Assembly (NCBI RefSeq): GCF_000018145.1
Contig: NC_009952.1
Span: forward strand, 1,860,001 to 1,924,000
Reading direction: 5' to 3'
Origin: Dinoroseobacter shibae DFL 12 = DSM 16493
GTDB lineage: Bacteria > Pseudomonadota > Alphaproteobacteria > Rhodobacterales > Rhodobacteraceae
Length of the DNA: 64,000 nt
Positions 5,219-61,575 of this stretch are shown here, in pieces. The notes below the pieces were generated by a model. It saw nothing but the letters and a program-made list of their open reading frames with translations. It was not told the DNA's origin and ran no database searches. Each line of letters opens with the position of its first letter. The stretch's first letter is position 1. A program made the position numbers and the translations under genes.

Positions 5219-7063
5219 ATGAAGGGTAAAACCTCCAACTTCTTCATGTTCATCCTGCTGGGCCTGCTGATCGTGGCGCTGGCGGGGTTCGGCATTTCCA
5301 GCTTCGGCGGCTCGAACGCGCGCGTGGGCTCGGTGGGCGACACCGACATCACCGTGGATGAGTACGCCCGGGCCTTGCAGACCCAGCTGCGCGCCGCCGG
5401 TCAGCAGCGCGGGCGCGCGGTCTCCATGGCCGAGGCGCGGGAGCTGGGGCTCGACCGGCAGGTGCTGGCACAGCTGGTCAACACGGCGGCCATCGACAAC
5501 GAGGCGGCGAAGCTGGGCGTCAGCGTGGGGGATATGCGCGTGGCCGAGCAGATCCAGACGATCCCCGCCTTTTCCGGGATCGGCGGCGGCTTCGACCGGG
5601 AGGCGTACGAGTTCACCCTGCAGCAAAACAACCTCTCCCCCGAGGAATTCGAGGCCGACGTGCGCAACGAGGCCGCGCGCAACCTGCTGCAGGCGGCGGT
5701 GATCGGCGGGCTGCGCGCGCCGCAGGCCTATACCGGTACGCTGTATGACTTCATCGCCGCGCGGCGGGACTTCACCTGGGCCGAGATCACGCCGGACCTG
5801 GTGGCCCTGACCCAGGCGATGCCAACGGATGCGGAACTGCGCGCGTTCTACGACGCGAACCCGGCGGCCTTCACCGCGCCCGAGACGCGCGAGATCACCT
5901 ACGTGCTGCTGAGCCCGGAGATGATGCAGGACCAGGTCTCGCCCTCCGAGGAGGATCTGCGCGCGGCCTATGACCGGGCCGCGTCGGTCTATGTCCAGCC
6001 CGAGCGCCGCCTGTTGGATCGCGTCGTCTTCGGCACCGAGGCGCAAGCCGCCGAGGCCAAGGCCGCCCTCGACAGCGGCGCGCAGAGCTTCGAAGAGCTC
6101 CTGGCCGCGCGCGATCTGAGCCTGGAGGATGTGGATCTCGGCGAGGTGGCGCGCGACGATCTCGACGACGCGGTGGCAGAGGTCGTTTTCGGCGATCAGG
6201 AGACCGGAATCGTCGGGCCGGTGCGCACGGCCCTGGGCCCGGCCCTGTTCCGGATCAACGCGGCCCTGGCCGCCCAGGTCACCACCTTCGAAGAGGCGCG
6301 CGACGAGCTGACCGCCGCGCTGGCGGGCGATGCCGCCCGCCGGGCCGTGGCCGACGAAATCGAGGCGCTTGATGATCTGCTGGCCGGGGGCGCCACGCTC
6401 GAAGAGCTGGCCGCCGACACGCCGGCGGAGCTGGGCGAGCTGTCGCTGACGGCGACCACCACCGAGGGCATCGCCGCCTATCCGGAAGTGCGCGCCCTGG
6501 CCAACACCCTGAGCGAGGGCGATTTTCCCGAAATCGAGACCCTCGACGACGGCGGTGTCTTTGCCCTGCGGCTCGACGAGGTCGTGCCCCCCCGGCTTTT
6601 GCCCTTCGACGAGGTGCGGGAGGATGTGGTGGCGGGCTGGGAGGCGCAGCGCCTGCAAGACGCGCTGAGCGCGGAGGCCGCGCGCGTGGCCGAGGCCCTG
6701 CGCGGCGGCGAGAGCTTCGCCGACCAGGGCCTGGAGCGGCAGGTGGAGACCGGCCTGACCCGGGAGGCCTTCATCGAGGGCACGCCCCCGGCACTGGTCA
6801 CCGATGTCTTCGCGCTGGAGGCCGAAGGCGACGTGGCGCTCGTGCCCGGCAACGGCGTGGTGATCGTGGCCCAGCTGACCGCGATCCTGCCGCCGGATAC
6901 CGAGGACCCGGATGCGGCGTTCCTGCGCAACGTGCTGGACCAGAGCATTTCCCAGACCCTGGCCGAGGATGTGTTCACCGCCTATGCCACCGCGATCCAG
7001 CAGGAGGCCGGGATCACCATCAACCAGAGCACGATCAACGGCATTCACGCCCAGTTCCCCTGA
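5219..7063 (+). CDS. PpiD/SurA-like periplasmic peptidyl-prolyl isomerase / folding factor
   Basis: Membrane-anchored folding factor of 614 residues. A short cytoplasmic N-terminus (MKGKTSNFF) is followed by one transmembrane segment (about 9-27), then a large acidic periplasmic region. Residues about 35-190 look like a SurA N-terminal chaperone domain. The middle (about 230-390) is a parvulin-like region with weak isomerase motifs, and the C-terminal third is helical. This is the PpiD layout, which helps outer-membrane proteins mature. The open frame starts at 5129, but ATG 5219 begins right at the membrane anchor and has GGGGAG upstream. The 193-bp gap before it holds no gene. trpE follows after 47 bp. 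Confidence 0.85.
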   Translation: MKGKTSNFFMFILLGLLIVALAGFGISSFGGSNARVGSVGDTDITVDEYARALQTQLRAAGQQRGRAVSMAEARELGLDRQVLAQLVNTAAIDNEAAKLGVSVGDMRVAEQIQTIPAFSGIGGGFDREAYEFTLQQNNLSPEEFEADVRNEAARNLLQAAVIGGLRAPQAYTGTLYDFIAARRDFTWAEITPDLVALTQAMPTDAELRAFYDANPAAFTAPETREITYVLLSPEMMQDQVSPSEEDLRAAYDRAASVYVQPERRLLDRVVFGTEAQAAEAKAALDSGAQSFEELLAARDLSLEDVDLGEVARDDLDDAVAEVVFGDQETGIVGPVRTALGPALFRINAALAAQVTTFEEARDELTAALAGDAARRAVADEIEALDDLLAGGATLEELAADTPAELGELSLTATTTEGIAAYPEVRALANTLSEGDFPEIETLDDGGVFALRLDEVVPPRLLPFDEVREDVVAGWEAQRLQDALSAEAARVAEALRGGESFADQGLERQVETGLTREAFIEGTPPALVTDVFALEAEGDVALVPGNGVVIVAQLTAILPPDTEDPDAAFLRNVLDQSISQTLAEDVFTAYATAIQQEAGITINQSTINGIHAQFP

Positions 7064-7110
7064 GCCCGCCTGCCCCGCCTTCGGGCAGATGACCCGCGAG
7101 AGACCCCGCC

Positions 7111-8640
<1,530 letters not shown>

Positions 8641-8667
8641 GGCTCGGGATTTCGTGAACCCGCAGAC

Positions 8668-8758
8668 AAGGCGTTTCGAAACGCCTTGGACAAGCGCCTT
8701 GCAAGGCGCTTGGGACGCGATTTCCAAATCGCGTGGGCAAGCCCGTTCGAACGGGCTT
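8668..8758. repeat. Tandem array of four distinct 20-bp palindromes, 23-24 bp period
   Basis: Four palindromes follow one another in the 126-bp gap between the convergent stops of trpE and the yibQ-like gene: 8668-8687 (half-arm AAGGCGTTTC), 8692-8711 (AAGCGCCTTG), 8715-8734 (ACGCGATTT, two unpaired central C) and 8739-8758 (AAGCCCGTTC). Each differs in sequence but keeps its own internal symmetry. Spacers are GGAC, GGG and GGGC. No T-run follows, so they are not classical terminators. Related single palindromes occur near 15.76 and 15.89 kb. Confidence 0.95.
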
Positions 8759-8766
8759 GGGCGCCG

Positions 8767-10593
8767 CTAGGACCCCGGGGCCAGCAAAAGCGCGGAGATC
8801 GGTGCAAGGCGCAAGGCATCCGGGTCCTGCGCGGCGCTCCAGTCGCGCAGGGCCGACAGCGTCTCGGCCCGGGTCTCGCCCAGCAGGACCGCCTGCCCGT
8901 CCGCGCCGGCGCGCAACGCCCCCTGGTCGAGGCTTCTGCGCAGGGCGTCCTCACCCTCTCCGGACCCGCCAAGGACCCGGCCCACCGAAATCGCGGGCAG
9001 ACCGATCGCCCGCGCCTCCTGCCCCACCGCGTCGAGCCCGCTGAGCGGCGCCACCAGCCCGTGGCCCGTGTCGCCCAACACCGCCACCAGGTGGCGCAGC
9101 AGTTCCCGATCGCCGAAGACCGGGCTCGTCCGGGGCAGCCAGACCCCCATCGCGCCCGGCAGGCGCGCGATATGGACCGCGAGGGCGGTATCGATGTCGC
9201 GCGGCTCGACCGGGTCGGGTAGCCCCGTCAGGGTGATCAGCACCTCGTGCCCCGCCGCGCGCAGCTCGGCCGCGCGCGCATCCGCCTCCGGCCATGTCGG
9301 GTCGAGCGCCACGGCCACGGGATCGGCGATCCGGCTCAGCACATCGGTGATCGCCCGCGCGTCAGAGGTCGCGCGCAGCACCAGGGCGAGCCGCGGCACA
9401 CCCTCCGCCCCTTCGAAAGGCAGCGCATTTCGGGCCAGGGCACCAAGCGGCGCGGGCACCTCCGGCTCTGGCGTCAGGGGATCGTCGGCCTCGGCCACCG
9501 CGGCGGTCTCGCCGATCCGGGGGATCCGCGAGGACAGGCCAGGGCCGCGGGTGCCGAAGCTCTGGTCGCTGCCGAGCACCAGACGGCGGGGCAGCTCCCG
9601 CGGCGGCACGACCAGGGCCGTGCGCCGGTCGTCGGCGGGCGGTGCAGGCGTGTCGGCGGCCGGGCGCAGGTCGGCGGGCAGAGGGCCTGCGGCCGGGACG
9701 GGCGGCTCCGACGCTTCCATGGGGGCCGCGGCCACGGGAGGCAGCGGCAGGTCTGCGGGTGCCAGGGCCAGCCGCGGCGGCGAGCTGTCGGGACGGGCAA
9801 GCTCGACCGGCTCCGGCGGGCCGGACGGCATCGATGGCTCCGCGGCGAGCTCCGGCGGCCGGGGCGGCGCGACAGGCGCCGACGCGACCGGTGGTTCGGC
9901 GGCCGTGCCAGGCACAGGCAGATCCGCGGGCCGGTCCGGCGTCCGCGTCGCCGCCTCGCCGATTTGCCGCGCGCCGGGGGCGGGCAGGATCGCGGCAGGG
10001 CCCGTCAAATCGCCCGGCTCCTGGGCAACCTCGGGGACCGGCAAAGGGGTTTGCAGGGCTGCGAGCGCCTCTCCCGGGGCGCGGTCGCGCACGGCACCGG
10101 GCACCGGCAGGCCCGGCGGCACGTCGGCCATCCGCGGCGCGGTGGCCGACGGGGTATCGGGCCCAGGCGCGGTTGGGACCGCTTGGCCGGGCGCGGGCTG
10201 CGCAACATTCGCCGGGGCGGTCTCGGCAAGTTCCGGGCCCGGGCCAGCGGGCGCGGCGGGGTCCGTCGGCGGCGCGGGCGGCGCCTCGGCAACCGTCGGC
10301 GCGGCCGGTGCAGGGGCATCGGGCGGCGGGCCGCTGTCTGGACGCGGGGTCTGCAACGGGGCCGCGACACGATCGGTCGTGACGGAAGGTTCAGGCTCCG
10401 CAACGCTCGGCTGCACCTCCGCCCCCGGCGGGAGGGGGGGCGGGTCGGCGAGCAACACGTTCTCGCGCACCGGCGCGCGCGGCGCGGTGCGGTCGCTGAT
10501 GTCCCGCAGGGGAAAATAAACCGACGCGGCCATCAGCACGATCATGCTGGCCGCACCGCCCCAGAACAGGCCCGAGAGTATGCCTCTACCCAT
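8767..10593 (-). CDS. YibQ-like divergent polysaccharide deacetylase family protein with long Pro/Ala linker
   Basis: Probable envelope protein of 608 residues. One hydrophobic N-terminal segment (about 5-27) is an uncleaved anchor or signal. It is followed by about 300 residues extremely rich in Pro, Ala and acidic residues, probably disordered and wall-spanning, then a C-terminal domain (from about 385) of the divergent polysaccharide deacetylase (YibQ/DUF610) type, with [23 protein letters not shown] and [14 protein letters not shown]. It lies between trpE and trpG on the opposite strand. The frame stays open 240 codons beyond ATG 10593, but that part overlaps trpG and lacks homology. Enzyme activity is unproven: the family often lacks metal ligands. 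Confidence 0.85.
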
Positions 10594-10776
10594 GCAAAAT
10601 GCCGCGTCTGCCTCACCTGCGGGGCCCCGATCCCGGTGGCCCCTTCTTGCTGCTGGTGCATCATCGCGCGCGCGGCGGGGCGGATGCAAGCCCCGAAGGC
10701 CCCCGGGGCACGGCGCAGGCCCTTGACCCCTGGGGCGGGCTGGTGGATCAAGAGGCCCGAACACAAGGGGCGCGCG

Positions 10777-11382
10777 ATGCTGCTGCTGATCGATAACTAC
10801 GACAGTTTCACCTATAACCTGGTGCATTACCTGGGCGAGCTCGGCGCGCCGGTGGAGGTGTATCGCAACGACGCGCTCGACGTGCAGGCGGCCATGGCGT
10901 TGAACCCGCAGGCGATCTTGCTGAGCCCCGGTCCCTGCGATCCGGACCAGGCGGGCATCTGTCTCGCGCTGACCGAGGCCGCCGCCGAGACCCGGACCCC
11001 CCTGATCGGCGTGTGCCTCGGGCACCAGACCATCGGACAGGCGTTCGGCGGCAAGGTGCAGCGGCATTCGGAGATCGTCCATGGCAAGCTCGGCGCGATG
11101 CATCACGGGGGCACGGGGCTCTTTGCCGGCCTGCCCTCGCCGCTGATGGGCACACGCTACCATTCGCTGGTGGTGGACCGTGACACCCTGCCCGACTGCC
11201 TGGAGGTCACCGCCTGGCTGGAGGACGGCACGATCATGGGGCTGCAGCACCGGGAGTTGCCGATCCACGGGGTGCAGTTCCACCCCGAGAGCATCAAGTC
11301 CGAACACGGGCACAAGATGTTGCAGAACTTCCTCGACACGGTGCCGGGGTTGGCCCCGGGGCGCGCAGAGATGCCCGCATGA
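10777..11382 (+). CDS. trpG: Anthranilate synthase component II (glutamine amidotransferase)
   Basis: Supplies ammonia from glutamine to TrpE. The 201-residue class I amidotransferase has the nucleophile elbow GVCLGHQ and the His-Glu pair in [13 protein letters not shown]. The N-terminus [15 protein letters not shown] is characteristic. The open frame extends far upstream (to 9247) opposite yibQ, but ATG 10777 has AAGGGG six bases upstream. Its stop overlaps the trpD start (ATGA), beginning a run of five translationally coupled genes. The 183-bp divergent gap before it contains no Trp-rich leader ORF. Confidence 0.96.
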
Positions 11383-12398
11383 GCGACGCGCTGAAACCCC
11401 TGATCGGGGCCGCCGCCGACCGTCCCCTGACCCGGGCGGAGGCCGAGGCGGCCTTCGAGATCCTGTTCGAGGGCGAGGCGACGCCGAGCCAGATGGGCGG
11501 GCTGCTGATGGCGCTGCGTACGCGCGGCGAGACGGTGGCGGAATACGCAGCCGCGGCCGCGGTGATGCGCGCCAAATGCAATGCAGTGCGCGCGCCCGAA
11601 GGCGCGATGGACATCGTCGGCACCGGGGGCGACGGCAAGGGGACGCTGAACATCTCCACCGCGACGGCCTTCGTGGTGGCGGGCGCGGGCGTGCCCGTGG
11701 CCAAGCATGGCAACCGCAATCTCAGCTCGAAATCCGGGGCGGCGGATGCGCTGGCGCAGATGGGGATCGAGGTCATGGTCGGCCCGGCGGTGGTCGAGCG
11801 GGCGTTGTCGGAGATCGGCATCGCCTTCATGATGGCGCCGATGCACCACCCGGCGATCCGGCACGTCATGCCCACGCGGGCCGAGCTGGGCACGCGGACC
11901 ATGTTCAACATCCTCGGCCCCCTGACCAACCCGGCAGGCGTCAAGCGGCAGCTGACCGGCGCGTTCTCCCGCGACCTGATCCGGCCCATGGCCGAGACCC
12001 TGGCGGCGCTCGGCTCGGACGTGGCCTGGCTGGTTCACGGCTCGGACGGCACCGACGAGCTGACGATTACGGGCGTGTCCTGGGTGGCGGGGCTGTCGGA
12101 CGGGGCGGTGACCGAGTTCGAGGTCCATCCCGAAGAGGCCGGCTTGCCGGTCCATCCGTTCGAGGCCATCCTCGGGGGCACGCCCGAGGAAAACGGCGCC
12201 GCCTTCCGCGCGCTTCTGGCCGGGGAGGCGTCGGCCTACCGAGACGCGGTGCTCTTGAACGCCGCGGCGGCACTGAAGGTCGCGGGGCGCGTCACCGCCC
12301 TGCCCGATGGCGTGATGCTGGCGGCGGAGGCGATCGACAGCGGCGCGGCCCTGGCCAAGGTGCAGGGGCTGGCACAGATCACATCGGAGGCGACATGA
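11379..12398 (+). CDS. trpD: Anthranilate phosphoribosyltransferase
   Basis: Transfers the phosphoribosyl group of PRPP to anthranilate, the second tryptophan-specific step. The 339-residue protein contains the glycine-rich PRPP loop [17 protein letters not shown], the [15 protein letters not shown] block, and the [11 protein letters not shown] motif of the family. The start codon overlaps the trpG stop and its own stop overlaps the trpC start, each by four bases (ATGA). Confidence 0.97.
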
Positions 12399-13210
12399 CC
12401 GACACCATTCTCGACCGGATCAAGGCCTACAAGCTGGAGGAAGTGGCCGCGCGCAAGGCCGCCCGCCCCCTGGCGGAGGTCGAGGCGGCCGCGCGCCAAG
12501 CCTCCCCCGTCCGGCCCTTCGCGGGCGCGCTGCGGGCGGCGGCCCAGAACGGTTATGCCCTGATCGCGGAGGTCAAGAAGGCGAGCCCCTCCAAGGGTCT
12601 GATCCGCGCCGATTTCGACCCGCCCGCGATTGCCCGCGCTTACGCGGCCGGGGGCGCGGCCTGCCTGTCGGTGCTGACCGATGCGCCGAGCTTCCAGGGG
12701 CATGAGGACTACCTCGTGGCGGCGCGCGCGGCCTGCGCCCTGCCCGTCCTGCGCAAGGATTTCATGTATGACCCCTACCAGGTGCCCGAGGCCCGGGCGA
12801 TGGGCGCGGACTGCATCCTGATCATCATGGCCAGCGTGTCGGACGCCCAGGCCGTCGAGTTGGAGGATGCCGCGACAAGCTGGGGCATGGATGCACTGAT
12901 CGAGGTGCATGACGGCGACGAACTGGACCGCGCCCTGCGGCTGAACTCGCCCCTGATGGGGATCAACAACCGCAACCTCAAGACGTTCGAGACGACCTTG
13001 GACACCACCCGCACCCTGGCGCCGCGTATCCCCGGCGACCGGATGATCGTGGCGGAATCGGGCCTGAGCGGGCCGACGGAGCTTGCCGATCTCGCGGGCT
13101 ACGGCGCGCGCACCTTCCTCATTGGCGAAAGCCTGATGCGGCAGGCGGATGTGGCCGAGGCCACGCGCGCGCTGCTCGCCAACCCGGTTCCCGTGGAGGG
13201 CGCGGCATGA
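12395..13210 (+). CDS. trpC: Indole-3-glycerol-phosphate synthase
   Basis: Closes the indole ring: carboxyphenylamino-deoxyribulose phosphate becomes indole-3-glycerol phosphate. The 271-residue TIM barrel has the family motifs [36 protein letters not shown] and the phosphate-binding [15 protein letters not shown]. It is monofunctional, with no TrpF domain; trpF, trpB and trpA are not in the window. It overlaps trpD by four bases at its start and moaC by four at its end. The reading frame is open far upstream inside trpD, but that portion is not TrpC. Confidence 0.97.
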
Positions 13211-13683
13211 GCGGTCTGACCCATTTCGACGCCCAGGGGGCGGCCCATATGGTCGATGTGTCCGACAAGGAAGTGACCGACCGGGTGGCGATTGCCCGCG
13301 GCGCGGTGCGCATGGCGCCCGAAACCCTCGCAATGATCGAGGGCGGGCGCGCCAAGAAGGGCGACGTGCTGGCCGTGGCGCGGCTGGCGGGGATCATGGG
13401 GGCCAAGAAGACCGCCGATCTGATCCCGCTGTGTCATCCCCTGCCGATCACCAAGGTCGCGCTGGAGCTGGTGCCGGACGCCGATCTGCCCGGCGTGCGG
13501 ATCGAGGCGACGGTCAAGACCTCGGGCCAGACCGGGGTGGAGATGGAGGCGCTGACCGCGGTGTCGGTCGCGGCCCTGACGATCTACGACATGGTGAAAG
13601 CCGTGGACAAGGCGATGCAGCTGACCGACATCCGGCTGGCGTTCAAGGATGGCGGCAAGTCCGGGCGTTTCGAAGCCGAATGA
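13207..13683 (+). CDS. moaC: Cyclic pyranopterin monophosphate synthase
   Basis: Molybdenum-cofactor enzyme that converts the MoaA product to cyclic pyranopterin monophosphate. The 158-residue protein shows the canonical [18 protein letters not shown] active-site segment, [21 protein letters not shown], and the C-terminal [16 protein letters not shown]. It begins in a four-base overlap with trpC and ends in one with moeA, tying molybdopterin synthesis to the trp transcript. The biological reason for that coupling is not evident, but the order is conserved in related genera. Confidence 0.97.
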
Positions 13684-14888
13684 GTGCGCTCATCCCGGTC
13701 TCGCAGGCGCTCGACGCGCTCTTCGCTCTGATCACGCCCCTGGACCCCGAGGACGTGCCCCTGCGCAATGCCGCGGGCCGGGTGCTGGCGCGCGATGCGG
13801 TGGCCCGGCGCGACCAGCCGCCCTTCGCCGCCTCGGCGATGGATGGCTACGCGCTGCGCGGGGATGAGGCGCAGCCGGGCGCACAGTTCGAGGTGGTCGG
13901 GGGCAGTGCCGCGGGCCATGGCTGGACCGGGCGGCTGGGCCCCGGCCAGGCGGTGCGCATCTTCACCGGGGCGCCGGTGCCCGAGGGCGCGGACCGCGTG
14001 GTGATCCAGGAGGATGTCACCGTCTACGAGGGCCGGATCACCCTGCTGGACAGTCTTGGCTCGGGCGACAACATCCGCCCCGCGGGGGGCGATTTCGCCG
14101 TGGGCGACCGGATGGCCGCGCCTCGGCGGCTCGGCCCCGCGGATGTGGCGCTGGCCGCGTCGATGAACCTGCCGGAGTTGTGCGTGGCGCGCCAGCCCGA
14201 GGTCGCGATCATCGCCACCGGGGACGAGCTGGTCCTGCCCGGCGAGACCCCTTCGCCGGACCAGATCATCGCGTCGAACAGCTTCGGCCTGGCCGCGATG
14301 TTCGAGGCCGAGGGCGCGCTGGTGCGGATGCTGCCCGTGGCCCGCGACACGCCCGAAGCCCTGACCGCCGTGCTGGAGCTTGCGCGCGGCGCGGACATGA
14401 TCGTCACCATCGGCGGGGCCTCTGTGGGCGATCACGACCATGTCGGATCGGTCATGGATGCGCTGGGGATGGAGCGGGCGTTCTACAAGATCGCCATGCG
14501 GCCGGGAAAACCGCTGATGTGCGGGCGGCTCGGGGACGCGGTGATGGTGGGGCTGCCGGGCAATCCGGTCTCCTCCATGGTGTGCGGCACGCTCTTTGTC
14601 GTGCCCGCCCTGCGCGCCATGCAGGGCCTGCCCGCGGCCCCCGTGCCGACCCTGACAGGCCAGCTGGCGGTGGCGACCGGACGCAATGGCCCGCGGGAGC
14701 ATTACATGCGCGCCACCCTCGCCGTGCAGGGCGGCACCTTCCGCCTCACCCCCGAGAACCGCCAGGACAGCAGCCTGATGACCGTGCTCGCAGGCGCCGA
14801 TTGCCTCGTCGTTCGCCCGCCCCACGCCCCCGCCGCCCCCGCAGGCAGCGAAGTGCCCTTCATCCCCCTGGTGCCGCTCGCAGGCTGA
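13680..14888 (+). CDS. moeA: Molybdopterin molybdenumtransferase
   Basis: Inserts molybdate into adenylylated molybdopterin in the cytoplasm. The 402-residue protein has the MoeA landmarks [28 protein letters not shown], the MogA-like core [13 protein letters not shown], and [10 protein letters not shown] followed by [11 protein letters not shown]. The start overlaps the moaC stop by four bases. moeA closes the trpG-to-moeA coupled run; 12 bases after its stop comes the TTGACA of the lexA promoter. MoaA, MoaB/MogA and MoaE are not in the window. Confidence 0.97.
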
Positions 14889-14900
14889 GCCTGGACGAAG

Positions 14901-14940
14901 TTGACACAAAGCGGGAACAGGGATAGAACAGTGAGTGAAC
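14901..14940 (+). promoter_or_regulatory. lexA promoter with two overlapping SOS boxes (GAAC-N7-GAAC-N7-GAAC)
   Basis: Three GAAC half-sites stand in line at 14915-14918, 14926-14929 and 14937-14940, each pair separated by exactly seven bases. GAAC-N7-GAAC is the alphaproteobacterial LexA operator, so this reads as two boxes sharing a middle half-site. TTGACA at 14901-14906 followed by 17 bases and TAGAAC (14924-14929) gives a sigma-70-like promoter whose -10 lies inside the operator, consistent with autorepression of lexA about 100 bp downstream. Confidence 0.85.
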
Positions 14941-15042
14941 CCGCTGGGGTTTAAGACCTTGTTTACCAGTTCTTGGTTTTACCAGGGCGCGGGTGTCTGC
15001 GGGCGGTGCCGGGCGACAGGCGTCCGAGAGGAGGGAGCAGTC

Positions 15043-15738
15043 ATGCTGACCAGAAAGCAGATCGAATTGCTGGAGTTCATTCACAAGCGATTGCAACGCG
15101 ACGGGGTGCCCCCGTCCTTCGACGAAATGAAAGACGCGCTGGACCTGCGGTCGAAATCGGGAATCCACCGGTTGATCACGGCGCTCGAGGAACGCGGATT
15201 CATCCGCAGGCTCGCGCACAAGGCACGGGCGATCGAGATTGTGAAATTGCCCGAGGCCCTGATGGGATCGATGCAGGGCGGGTTCGCCCCGCAGGTGATC
15301 GACGGTGACCGTCTGGACCCACCCGTCGGGGCGATGCCGGTGTCGGGCATTCACGCGGTGGAGTTGCCCGTGATGGGCAAGATCGCCGCCGGCACACCGA
15401 TCGAGGCGATCAGCGAAGTGTCCCATACGGTGGCCGTGCCCGGGCAGATGATGCGCCAGGACGCGGAGCATTACGCGCTGGAGGTGAAGGGCGACTCGAT
15501 GATCAATGCCGGGATCAACAATGGCGACATCGTGGTGATCCGGGAGACGAGTGTTGCCGAGAGCGGAGATATCGTGGTCGCACTTGTCGACGGGCACGAG
15601 GCGACGCTGAAGACCCTGCGCAAGCGCGGTAACGCGATCGCGCTGGAGGCGGCGAACCCCGCCTATGAAACACGGGTCTACCCGGCCGAAATGGTGCGGG
15701 TGCAGGGCAAGCTGGTCGGGCTGATCCGCTCCTACTGA
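15043..15738 (+). CDS. lexA: LexA SOS repressor
   Basis: Represses DNA-damage-response genes and cleaves itself when RecA filaments form. The 231-residue protein has an N-terminal winged helix ([17 protein letters not shown]...), the Ala116-Gly117 cleavage site in [10 protein letters not shown], the catalytic Ser152 (GDSMINAGI) and Lys190 (EATLKTL). The linker between DNA-binding and protease domains is longer than in E. coli, as usual for alphaproteobacteria. ATG 15043 follows a strong GAGGAGGGAG site; an upstream in-frame GTG at 14935 lies inside the operator and is rejected. The region 14941-15042 is leader sequence containing two copies of GTTT(T)ACCAG. Confidence 0.97.
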
Positions 15739-15759
15739 GGCGCACGGCCGGGGCGAGGA

Positions 15760-15915
15760 CCAAGAGCTTTCGAAAGCTCTTGGGGCCCGGAGCCCACAGA
15801 TCTTGCAAGGACCGGTCCGCTCGCCCGGTCCAGCCCGCGGTCTTGCGGGAAATCATCCAAACGTTTTGCGCGGCAGCAGGGCTGCGCGCCTCCAAGAGTT
15901 TTCGAAAACTCTTGG
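15760..15915. repeat. Hairpin-filled convergent gap with two palindromes of the same type as the trpE array
   Basis: The 188-bp space between the stops of lexA and comEC holds two perfect palindromes: 15762-15781 (half-arm AAGAGCTTTC) and 15894-15913 (half-arm AAGAGTTTTC). Both extend two base pairs further outward as CC...GG. Between them are three more inverted repeats: GGACCGG/CCGGTCC (15809-15831), CCCGC/GCGGG (15834-15849) and GCGCGGCAGC/GCTGCGCGC (15868-15889). The two main palindromes share the AAG...TTC|GAA...CTT pattern of the array at 8668-8758. Confidence 0.9.
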
Positions 15916-15926
15916 CCCGCGGCGGC

Positions 15927-18011
15927 TCAGCGGGTCGGCTCCGCGCCCGGCGCGCGGGCCAGGCGGCCCGGCGTGGTCGCACGTGCGGCCCCGGTCCACA
16001 TCCGCTGCTCTTCTGCGGACTTCGCGCGGACCACCTGCAACCCGTCCTCGGTCACCGACACCGCCAGCGCACCTGTCCGGCGCAGATCCCAGGCGTCGAT
16101 GCTCTCGCAGGCCCCGGTGCTGCGCGGCAGCCGCGTGTTGGCCACCACCAGGTCCGCCGTGGCACAGGCCTCCGGAAACTGCGCCGCACCGGTCTTGCCG
16201 CGCAGCTGGATCACCCGGTAGGGCCCGAGGGCCACGCTGACCGTCCCCTTGCCCGCCTCGATCCCCGCGCGCGCCGCCGCCACGTCCTGCGTCACCCCGT
16301 CGCCGTCATTCTCCAGCCAGTTGCGCGCCGCGAACCCGTCACCGCGGCCCTTGCTGAGCGCGCGTCCCTGCTCGGTCATCACGCCCAGCAGCCCGCCCGT
16401 GTCGGAGATCAGCAGCTCTGGCCGGTCGGACTGGGTCCAGAGCCCCAGGGCCAGCACCACCGGCGCCAGCCCCGCCCATCGCGCCCGCCAGGGCAAAAGC
16501 CCCACCACCAGCGCTCCCAGCACGATCAACGGCAGCACCACGGGCATCGGGCGGACCACATGGCCCACCGCCCCCTCCAGCCCCGCGACCGTGCCGGCCA
16601 CCCAGAGGATCCAGCGGATCCCGACCTCCATCGCGAAGAGACCGACCCCCTCCAGCCCCAGGGGCACGCCCGCCAGCGCCACCAGCGCGCCGGGCATCAC
16701 CAGCGTGCCCATGACCGGCACCGAGGCCAGGTTCGCGATCAGCCCGTAATGGCCGACGATGTTGAAATGCGCCGCCGCAATGGGGGCCGTGGCCGCCCCC
16801 GCCACCGCCGAGGACAGCAAGAGCGAGGCCGTCCCCTTGGCCCATTTCGGAATGCCCCGCCACCAGCGCACATCGCGCAGATGGGCATAGGTGATGACCA
16901 GCGCCGTGGTCGCGGCAAACGACATCTGGAACCCCGGGCCCAGCACCGCCTCGGGCCTGAGCGCCAGCACCAGCAGCGCCGCCCAGGCGACCGAACGCAG
17001 GGACAGCGCCCGGCGGTCGAAACACACGCCCACCAGGATCATCGCCACCATGATGAAGGCCCGCTCCGTCGCCACGCTCATGCCCGAGATGAACAGGTAG
17101 ACGACCGCCGCGCCCAGGGCGCAGACCGCCGCCACCTTCTTGACCGGCACGCGCAGCGCCAGCCAGGGCCACAGCGCCATTAGACTGCGCAGGCCCAGAA
17201 ACACCGTACCCGTGAGCAACCCCATATGCAGGCCGGAGATCGCCAGCAGATGGGCAAGGTTCGAGCCGCGCAGGTCTTCGACATGGGCGCGGTCGATGGC
17301 CGCCCGGTCGCCGGTGATGATCGCCGAGGCGAAGGCCCCGGGCTGGCCCGCGATCCGGTCGCGGATCGCCTTGGACAGCTTCAGCCGGGTCTCGTAGACA
17401 CGCTCGGCGAAGCTCAGCTGCGCAGGCTCCGCCCAGAGGACCACGGGCACGCGGGTGTAGCCCACGGCCCCCAGCCCCTCGAACCAGGCATGGCGGCGAA
17501 AGTCGAAGCCGCCCGGCTCCACCGGCGCGTTGGGCGGCGACAGATGCCCGGTGGTCATCACGACCTGGCCCGGGCGTAGCGGCACCTCGGGCAACGGCCC
17601 GTGGAGCGACACCCGCACCTGCGCCGGGCGGCGGTCGGGCGCGACATCCTCCAGCCGCACATCCGCGAGGGTCAGGCGCATCGCCCCGGCATAGGAGCTG
17701 TCGATCTCGACGATGCGCCCCTCGATCGGCCCGTAATAGCGAAAGGGCAGCACCGAGGCGGCCACATCCGCCGTGCGCCAGGCCGCGAGCCCGTAGCCCC
17801 CCGCCGCCAGCGCCAGCGCCCAGCCCAGGGGCCGCAGGGACCAGGGCGCAAAGAGCCCCCAGAGCAGGCCGAAGGCAGCACAGGACCACACCAGCCGCAG
17901 CACCGCCAGGGACGGCTCGCCCGCGGGCAGAAAATAGGCCAGCATCCCGCAGCCCAGCACCACGGGGGCCCAGGGGAACAGCACCTGCCGTACCTCTGCG
18001 TATTGGGTCAC
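15927..18011 (-). CDS. comEC: ComEC/Rec2-family DNA-uptake channel protein
   Basis: Inner-membrane protein of 694 residues related to the competence channel that passes single-stranded DNA into the cytoplasm. The order is two N-terminal helices, a soluble OB-like DUF4131 region (about 85-190), the Competence membrane domain with LRGSNLAHLLAISGLHMGLLTG and SVATERAFIMVAMILVG, and a C-terminal remnant of the beta-lactamase-like domain (LLISDTGGLLGVMT...). That last domain seems short and lacks the HxHxDH zinc motif. The start at 18011 gives a normal N-terminus. It is divergent from gltX. Other competence genes are absent here, so the role in uptake is inferred from family. Confidence 0.9.
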   Translation of the reverse strand: MTQYAEVRQVLFPWAPVVLGCGMLAYFLPAGEPSLAVLRLVWSCAAFGLLWGLFAPWSLRPLGWALALAAGGYGLAAWRTADVAASVLPFRYYGPIEGRIVEIDSSYAGAMRLTLADVRLEDVAPDRRPAQVRVSLHGPLPEVPLRPGQVVMTTGHLSPPNAPVEPGGFDFRRHAWFEGLGAVGYTRVPVVLWAEPAQLSFAERVYETRLKLSKAIRDRIAGQPGAFASAIITGDRAAIDRAHVEDLRGSNLAHLLAISGLHMGLLTGTVFLGLRSLMALWPWLALRVPVKKVAAVCALGAAVVYLFISGMSVATERAFIMVAMILVGVCFDRRALSLRSVAWAALLVLALRPEAVLGPGFQMSFAATTALVITYAHLRDVRWWRGIPKWAKGTASLLLSSAVAGAATAPIAAAHFNIVGHYGLIANLASVPVMGTLVMPGALVALAGVPLGLEGVGLFAMEVGIRWILWVAGTVAGLEGAVGHVVRPMPVVLPLIVLGALVVGLLPWRARWAGLAPVVLALGLWTQSDRPELLISDTGGLLGVMTEQGRALSKGRGDGFAARNWLENDGDGVTQDVAAARAGIEAGKGTVSVALGPYRVIQLRGKTGAAQFPEACATADLVVANTRLPRSTGACESIDAWDLRRTGALAVSVTEDGLQVVRAKSAEEQRMWTGAARATTPGRLARAPGAEPTR

Positions 18012-32863: not shown

Positions 32864-33247
32864 GGCGCGCATCGCTTCGGCCCGCACCCCGGACCGCGCC
32901 AGACGGGCGGCGGCACCCGGCCCTTGAATATGTATCCGCCGCTAGGGGTCGGCGCGGCGGCAGCGCTTCGCCGACCGCCGACGCCCGGAAGACATGAAGC
33001 ACCGCTCGGCTTGACCGCCGAGCGGTGCGGTAGGTGAAAGACATGCTTGCGCATCTGTTCGCGCCGAGGCGGCTTTGATCGCGGGCCACGGAGAGGGGCG
33101 GTGACCGAGGGCTGTCGCGGCCTCGGGGCGGGCAGGTGTCGCCCGGAGGGGTTGCCCTCGGGTCGGGACGGGTAGTGGAGATGCGGGGCGAGGCCCCCGG
33201 ACCGGTGCGTGCCCGGCCCGGACGCGGGGGCGCGCGCTGCCCCGTGC
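32864..33247. other. 384-bp gene-free region with a perfect 12-bp-stem hairpin
   Basis: No coding frame here has supporting features. At 32999-33028 GCACCGCTCGGC pairs perfectly with GCCGAGCGGTGC around the loop TTGACC. No T-run follows on either strand. It could protect or terminate the transcript of the minus-strand LuxR gene that ends at 33248, or of the plus-strand VPLPA-CTERM gene. The remainder is GC-rich sequence with nothing I recognise. Confidence 0.6.
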
Positions 33248-61550: not shown

Positions 61551-61575
61551 AAAGGGCGCCTTCGGGCGCCCTTTT
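61551..61575 (+). terminator. Rho-independent terminator of glnA
   Basis: AAAGGGCGCC, loop TTCG, GGCGCCCTTT makes a perfect ten-base stem ending in TTTT (61571-61575), 18 bases after the glnA stop. Confidence 0.92.

Follow-up and report, generated by a model that had tools for sequence, protein, structure and literature searches.

A dispersed family of gene-end palindromes in Dinoroseobacter shibae and other Rhodobacteraceae keeps the symmetry of its arms rather than their sequence

Extragenic palindromes are hard to interpret because their sequence, mobility and function are usually inseparable. The closest described systems are the REP and BIME elements, for which roles in supercoiling, termination and mRNA stabilisation have been proposed, according to the available text of PMC3733652. 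Perfect inverted repeats are also enriched behind bacterial stop codons, peaking between +50 and +80 in the accessible part of PMC13155455, and replication template switching can make and repair perfect stems, as the portion of PMC8794818 at hand describes. The arrays reported here resemble REP and BIME, as these are portrayed in the excerpted text of PMC3733652, in being extragenic palindromes of the 20-40 bp class that occur in many copies, single or grouped. Term searches of the open-licence PMC literature listed no paper with such arrays in its title or abstract.

The stretch analysed, referred to as the window, comprises 64,000 nucleotides of the Dinoroseobacter shibae DFL 12 genome (G000; 4.42 Mb, 6 contigs), at C1:1860001-1924000. 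Four 20-bp palindrome cores start at 8668, 8692, 8715 and 8739, at spacings of 24, 23 and 24 bp; on recheck, these starts and spacings proved exact as given in the preliminary description. The whole array spans 8667-8759 and lies between the upstream gene trpE (7111..8640, plus strand; anthranilate synthase component I, Pfam PF00425 and PF04715) and a convergent gene of the YibQ-like divergent polysaccharide deacetylase type (8767..10545, minus strand; PF04748), the start of the latter being that called by a codon-model script (the mechanical ORF extends to 11313). P1 (8667..8688, CAAGGCGTTTCGAAACGCCTTG) has the centre CG and lies 26 bp behind the trpE stop, followed by P2 (8691..8712, CAAGCGCCTTGCAAGGCGCTTG) with the centre GC. 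P3 (8715..8734, ACGCGATTTCCAAATCGCGT) starts with ACG and has 9-bp arms around the centre CC, and P4 (8738..8759, CAAGCCCGTTCGAACGGGCTTG), with the centre CG, is separated by 7 bp from the convergent gene's stop codon.

The array region folds as four hairpins on both strands, with RNA z-scores of -5.1 and -5.3 and a DNA z-score of -6.3 on the plus strand. An Rfam covariance-model search of window positions 7000-17000, at E up to 5, gave no match to a known RNA family at the array; its sole match was mir-598 at 11798-11831, which scored 19.9 bits where the gathering score is 69. Eight palindromes in the window have arms of at least 10 bp, against 0.95 expected from 20 first-order Markov sequences, while arms of at least 8 bp occur in 17 palindromes against 13.9 expected. 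Five of the eight belong to the array family (P3, with its 9-bp arms, falls outside this count). The remaining three, at 32999, 53497 and 61551, are non-family hairpins. That at 32999-33028 is of another kind, with 12-bp arms (GCACCGCTCGGC...GCCGAGCGGTGC), and that at 61551-61574 (AAAGGGCGCCTTCGGGCGCCCTTT) has an A-rich base resembling a bidirectional terminator.

Like REP elements, the arrays are dispersed, extragenic and multicopy, with 95 sites in the D. shibae genome and three of 125 clusters inside called ORFs. Unlike RAYT-linked REP elements, they have no shared arm sequence, are perfectly symmetric and include rows of four (tetrads) with position-coded centres, and their host genome here encodes no RAYT. 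REP tags show no enrichment: within 8 bp beyond either end of 326 palindromes, GTAG occurred 2 times, CTAC 0, CGTC 13 and GACG 8, compared with 6, 3, 15 and 18 in control stretches 80 bp away. In all, three of the four REP features tested are absent, which places the arrays outside the RAYT-linked REP families as far as these features go. By analogy, they may be a kind of extragenic palindrome that works like REP and BIME and is set apart from the REP family.

Neither chance occurrence nor confinement to one locus, the two outcomes against which the preliminary description was set, agrees with the copy numbers. The pattern CAAG-N4-TTNNAA-N4-CTTG was found 95 times in the D. shibae genome and its reversed-pattern control not at all. 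P3 as ACGCGATTTNNAAATCGCGT (18 letters around a free centre) has 8 copies there and 11 in G030, and each of the eight occupies an inner position in a row of four. At least eight four-palindrome arrays are present in this genome, the window's array included, and eight of them have the same third palindrome. The family is dispersed and extragenic, occurs as singles, dyads and tetrads, and is placed almost wholly on the main chromosome. The 3.79-Mb contig C1 carries 78 listed strict sites, three more at 3.0156 Mb and 11 in 3.02-3.22 Mb, which leaves at most 3 of the 95 for the remainder of C1 plus the five small contigs. These small contigs, which are probably plasmids, total 628 kb, and 13.5 sites would be expected on them by length; the 200 kb of small contigs checked held 0 family sites.

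Across the Rhodobacteraceae, the CAAG pattern is present in 85 of 295 genomes, with the control never exceeding two, and by our own count of the table 25 of the 295 have at least five sites. Of the 394 family genomes sampled, 27 matched the tandem pattern, with control columns of 0 throughout, and most sampled genomes of the family are without a tandem array. A class-wide draw of 367 genomes returned the pattern in one, D. shibae itself, and in 0 of the 362 that belong to other families of the class. Array presence has a scattered distribution on a 106-row TrpE tree, a one-gene tree whose positives are 23 array genomes plus four named loci with family palindromes and which omits the array genomes G170, G175, G243 and G248, where no full TrpE was available. 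The label requires 21 changes on this tree where shuffling gives 24.2, a number as low as 21 being reached in 28 of the 500 shuffles, and well-supported branches force at least six of the changes. The TrpE of array genome G358 is the same as that of Tropicibacter alexandrii.

Within the genus, P3 has 0 copies in the five other genomes. G002 and G003 have gaps of 56 and 19 bp behind trpE, compared with 126 bp for the window, and both lack the array; G004 and G005 have longer stretches with no family palindromes in the 300 bases covered, and G001 gave no trpE. A second locus of the window, a pair of spaced palindromes between lexA and a comEC-type gene, is absent from all five relatives, where the distance between alignment ends is 69 bp (G002), 24 bp (G004), 9 bp (G003), 36 bp (G005) and 9 bp (G001), against 188 bp in the window. 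These shorter gaps indicate that both the trpE array and the lexA-comEC pair are extra DNA in D. shibae, which is a gain in its own lineage or a loss in the others.

The preliminary description had offered a mobile palindrome family as one explanation. Dispersal and patchiness agree with it, but Y1 and Y2 transposases do not follow the arrays. The RAYT/Y1 transposase (PF01797) was rejected as a driver, being absent from the D. shibae genome and present in 3 of 27 array genomes compared with 4 of 27 others. The same applies to the IS91-type Y2 transposase (PF04986), found in 4 of 27 array genomes, among them D. shibae with three copies on contig C2, and in 3 of 27 others. The 27 others of both comparisons are genomes without a tandem match, one of which, G010, has 8 CAAG sites. 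IS91 presumably targets CAAG/CTTG-like tetranucleotides. Of the groups formed by 677 array-adjacent genes, the 25 with the widest sharing include no mobile gene.

Plasmid and phage sequences were also considered. The window array (106 bases) gave no blastn match at E up to 1e-5 among 72,556 plasmid and 50,697 phage records, which is a weak test since the arms vary. A plasmid or phage origin is not supported. Among 64 viral contigs matching the tandem pattern just one, L325 (IMGVR_UViG_2890578919_000001, around 8546-8610), resembled a genuine array. This array is possibly host sequence beside a provirus. A CCTGTT-type repeat recurs in most of the 64 contigs, most of them without the symmetry of the arrays; in the viral contigs L281-L344, runs of CCTGTT-like units precede tandem units that resemble TTCGAAGGGGCTT or TTCGAAGCCCCTT.

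A selfish palindrome family spread by a machinery with a preference for gene ends and lacking a host function, its patchiness being the product of gain and loss, would account for the patchy presence described above, for the lack of P3, the lexA-comEC pair and the trpE array in relatives, and for the many arms common to the tetrads of one genome. It agrees poorly with the near-absence of sites off the main chromosome, with transposases that are uncorrelated with the arrays, with the lack of mobile genes among the most shared neighbour groups, and with gene ends that are shared across genera. Some other factor might nevertheless move the family. We consider this explanation, one of the two main rivals of the preferred reading, rather unlikely.

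The strongest feature of the family is the near-total Watson-Crick symmetry of its varying arms. An anchor-only search leaves four arm positions (N4) free, and at 190 of 196 such sites in array genomes these were fully symmetric, with 777 of 784 pairs Watson-Crick, 2 G-U or A-C and 5 other. In the background, 17 genomes with at most two matches each, 3 of the 23 listed matches and 30 of 92 pairs were symmetric (Fisher p 3e-20 for symmetry in array genomes against background). The 67 distinct sites, or 603 cells, contain 142 both-sided changes relative to the commonest pair, compared with 2 G-U/U-G and 5 unpaired cells, and their covariation score is 0.547 against 0.108 when shuffled. The 67 distinct 22-mers have just 12 letters in common, which are the search anchors. 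The earlier statement that symmetry rather than sequence is conserved is hence borne out quantitatively.

A constraint on an RNA stem alone normally tolerates G-U pairs. Their near-absence suggests that the symmetry is imposed on DNA. In codirectional gaps one strand is the message, and an RNA-only constraint should leave G-U pairs there; even so, palindromes between codirectional genes, in rows preselected as near-perfect palindromes, have 1519 of 1530 pairs Watson-Crick, with 1 G-U in the sense strand, 2 A-C and 8 other, which speaks against such a constraint. Symmetry at the DNA level seems to come from a factor that reads DNA hairpins or from template-switch copying between the arms. The paired changes without visible intermediates and the perfect stems resemble template-switch hairpins as treated in the available part of PMC8794818. 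In contrast to the RNA genes of that account (PMC8794818), the arrays also fix the letters of base and tip, the length and the spacing; template switching alone is thus not a sufficient explanation.

The symmetry of the free positions also bears on an array of operators for a sequence-specific dimeric DNA-binding protein, which the preliminary description had listed as a binding array. Units set regularly at 22-26 bp, or some 2.1-2.5 helical turns, would suit such an array. However, the arms vary and yet remain symmetric, and a dimer that reads the fixed letters alone needs no symmetric N4: an operator would leave the paired changes at its unread positions unexplained. In addition, arrays are absent from all 134 promoter-bearing divergent gaps of the genomic sample described below. 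The dimeric-protein array is disfavoured, to the point that we regard it as scarcely credible.

The architecture is as constant as the arms are variable. Grouping palindromes within 30 bp of each other gave 192 distinct clusters, comprising 88 singles, 64 dyads, 10 triads and 30 tetrads, at loci that were partly selected by pattern, such that the class shares are not frequencies. No cluster has more than four perfect palindromes; in L251 a degenerate fifth unit can be seen by eye. In 29 distinct tetrads from at least eight genomes, the successive spacings are 24-26, 22-24 and 23-25 bp, and the centre CG occupies the first position in 29/29, the fourth in 29/29, the second in 5/29 and the third in 7/29. 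Over 30 tetrads, outer centres are CG in 60/60 and inner centres in 12/60. The tandem search pattern starts with TTCGAA, and loci found with it consequently favour CG centres; the 15 tetrads found via the third palindrome, which lack this bias, also have CG at both ends throughout. The third palindrome starts with ACG in 21 of the 29, 14 or 15 of which were found through that very pattern. Tandem palindromes within an array differ from each other, while the tetrads of one genome share many arms, and some arm sets recur.

Palindromes of the family also occur as spaced pairs, singles being frequently found as like pairs with a distance of about 120 bp. For example, between lexA (15043..15738, plus strand; PF01726 and PF00717) and the gene for a comEC-type competence protein (15927..17984, minus strand; PF03772 and PF13567), one palindrome (15760..15783) stands 21 bp behind the lexA stop and another (15892..15915) 11 bp from the comEC stop, separated by a 108-bp spacer (15784..15891). 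The two differ by one base pair, altered on both sides, and the spacer folds at the level of its shuffles (z -0.42; other strand -0.53). In the D. shibae genome, 21 of 25 neighbouring singles 70-180 bp apart are alike (at most one difference), and spaced clusters, 85-177 bp apart, come as a rule in twos. Neisseria dRS3 elements are palindromes of about 20 bp that bracket unlike stretches; compared with them, by description, the present elements are like pairs around unique spacers behind stop codons. They also differ from a CRISPR array, as tandem palindromes are unlike each other and spaced clusters usually come in twos.

Two candidates for a function of the spacers found no support. A structured RNA is not indicated by 27 spacers, whose mean z against shuffles was 0.03 (other strand 0.19), nor is a C-rich Rho site, C and G being about equal by eye. 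Comparison of the 27 spacers with each other and with 41 stretches of the D. shibae genome gave no convincing similarity, just short matches of 16-20 bases. Whole dyads are duplicated in G348 (behind mlaE) and in G340. Behind mlaE, G348 (L250 2505-2656) has the dyad twice and G007 (L245) once with the same arms, and the G348 spacer between the doubled dyads itself holds inverted repeats by eye. This comparison is a possible view of how spaced pairs arise.

The family has a marked place at gene ends. Among 125 clusters, 45 are convergent, 69 codirectional and 4 divergent, with 3 in called ORFs and 4 undetermined; the nearest stop codon lies at a median of 13 bp and within 30 bp in 94 of 114, on gene calls from a home-made codon model that may err in starts and in a few neighbours. 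Three genomes contributed 1 Mb of contiguous chromosome, in which gaps of 60 bp and upwards were counted: 10 of the 65 convergent gaps contain an array, as do 14 of the 283 codirectional and 0 of the 134 divergent ones (gene-end against divergent gaps, p 0.0006; convergent against codirectional, p 0.006). These stretches are on contigs with previously listed hits and their densities are not representative: the D. shibae part has 11 strict sites in 200 kb, and the genome mean would give about 4. Counted gaps contain 24 of the 26 clusters in the sample, and one of the 24, in G030, is without the AAG/ACG base. Given the general enrichment of perfect inverted repeats behind stop codons, as far as PMC13155455 sets it out in the text available, the place of the arrays alone is not new.

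Some gene ends are shared between genomes. Cross-genome comparison found a similar gene end in 13 of 6624 cluster pairs, where a hand estimate expects about 1.7, and some of the 13 may be paralogues. Behind mlaE, the arms are the same in G007 and G348. The gap around trpF, a small ORF and trpB (named by Pfam) holds unlike arrays in G000, G090 and G100, which represent three genera, and G167 has an array before trpB that differs from these in arms and number. The trp-gap loci are L127 (3982-4160), L173, L254 and L159. Two ends of monomeric isocitrate dehydrogenase genes were also noted: that of D. shibae (L136 3890-4300) has a classical-looking terminator, a palindrome and a decaying second palindrome, and in G305 (L261) a tetrad stands directly behind the stop.

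This place raises the question of termination. The expectation that plain intrinsic termination is unlikely fits the window, which has no T or A run longer than three in 8641-8766. Ordinary bidirectional intrinsic terminators of a high-GC genome would likewise be hairpins directly behind stop codons, and perfect inverted repeats in that place are common in bacteria at large (PMC13155455, in the part available). At convergent ends in D. shibae, a simple finder identified a classical terminator in 6 of 38 with an array and 14 of 36 without (p 0.036). The corresponding figures are 1/6 and 18/44 in G030, 1/6 and 7/38 in G374 (where the share was counted as not lower with an array), and 8/50 and 39/118 in the three genomes pooled (p 0.025). 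Arrays partly replace classical terminators at convergent ends. At codirectional ends in D. shibae the share is not lower with an array (6/27 against 19/93), and some ends, seen by eye at L001, L012 and L136, carry both a classical-looking terminator and family palindromes.

Unlike intrinsic terminators, however, the array of the window has no T run, and the arrays place up to four hairpins in a row with position-coded centres, read the same on both strands and also sit shortly before the next gene. Specifically, no more than 40 bp separates the end of 14 of 69 codirectional clusters from the next called start, as with the array between mlaE and an ABC-transporter gene, which makes full termination there unlikely. 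The arrays can hardly all be full terminators, and ordinary intrinsic terminators are a very improbable explanation of the family.

The position relative to genes gives the best support to another suggestion of the preliminary description, a multi-hairpin 3' end for converging mRNAs. The convergent part of it is too narrow, since codirectional clusters outnumber convergent ones. The reading preferred here, to which we assign a probability of roughly 0.45, is that the arrays are hairpins at gene ends whose symmetry is renewed at the DNA level and whose targets are the 3' ends of mRNAs coming from either side. Each unit would be transcribed as a tight hairpin with an 8-9 bp stem and a 4-nt loop, the same on both strands, such that one array could serve mRNA from either direction. 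A row of these hairpins may protect the upstream message against 3'-to-5' exonucleases at its 3' end, and may slow or partly stop RNA polymerase and so damp read-through. Maintenance would most simply rely on template switching in replication, with one arm copied from its partner; one-sided mutations would in this way become paired ones without G-U intermediates. In the available text of PMC7866481, 3' ends enriched in wild-type Rhodobacter sphaeroides relative to a pnp mutant show no general shift to stronger folding. This result (PMC7866481, as far as its text was available) counts against the exonuclease-shield explanation. The preferred reading is also weakened by the scarcity of G-U pairs in codirectional gaps, by terminator shares that are no lower with an array at codirectional ends or in G374, by ends that carry both kinds of element, by the few clusters in divergent gaps or called ORFs, and by the many family genomes that have no tandem array.

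Alternatively, the arrays may act as DNA. Extruded cruciforms, lagging-strand hairpins or sites for a structure-reading protein, for instance a sink for supercoils or a site for gyrase or a nucleoid protein where transcription units end, would have a fixed A-A/C-G base and a TT-NN-AA tip to be read, and arms that need just pair. Watson-Crick symmetry with almost no G-U, position-coded tetrad centres, narrow spacing, near-confinement to the main chromosome and the preference for convergent over codirectional gaps all favour such an element. Against it, stems of about 9 bp make the spontaneous extrusion of a cruciform unlikely, no protein was found, and a location directly after stop codons agrees at least equally well with RNA. 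A DNA-level element is a serious alternative to the gene-end hairpin reading, though on the whole an unlikely one.

A bolder and quite doubtful proposal is that a patchily inherited factor reads the hairpins, as DNA or RNA, by their base (AAG or ACG), their tip (TT-NN-AA) and their position-coded centre, which is CG outside and mostly not inside. Such a factor would require the arms to pair without requiring a given sequence, and would build and maintain gene-end units of one, two or four palindromes, or like pairs when spaced. If this were true, self-perfecting palindromes would carry heritable information in their symmetry, not in their sequence.

In summary, arm letters turn over across many genera in this family, while length, tip, base, spacing, number and place are fixed. 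This, in a D. shibae genome without the known RAYT transposase, separates structure from sequence. The arrays make it testable how perfect palindromes remain perfect, and what role hairpins have at mRNA ends, above all in the gaps common to convergent genes.
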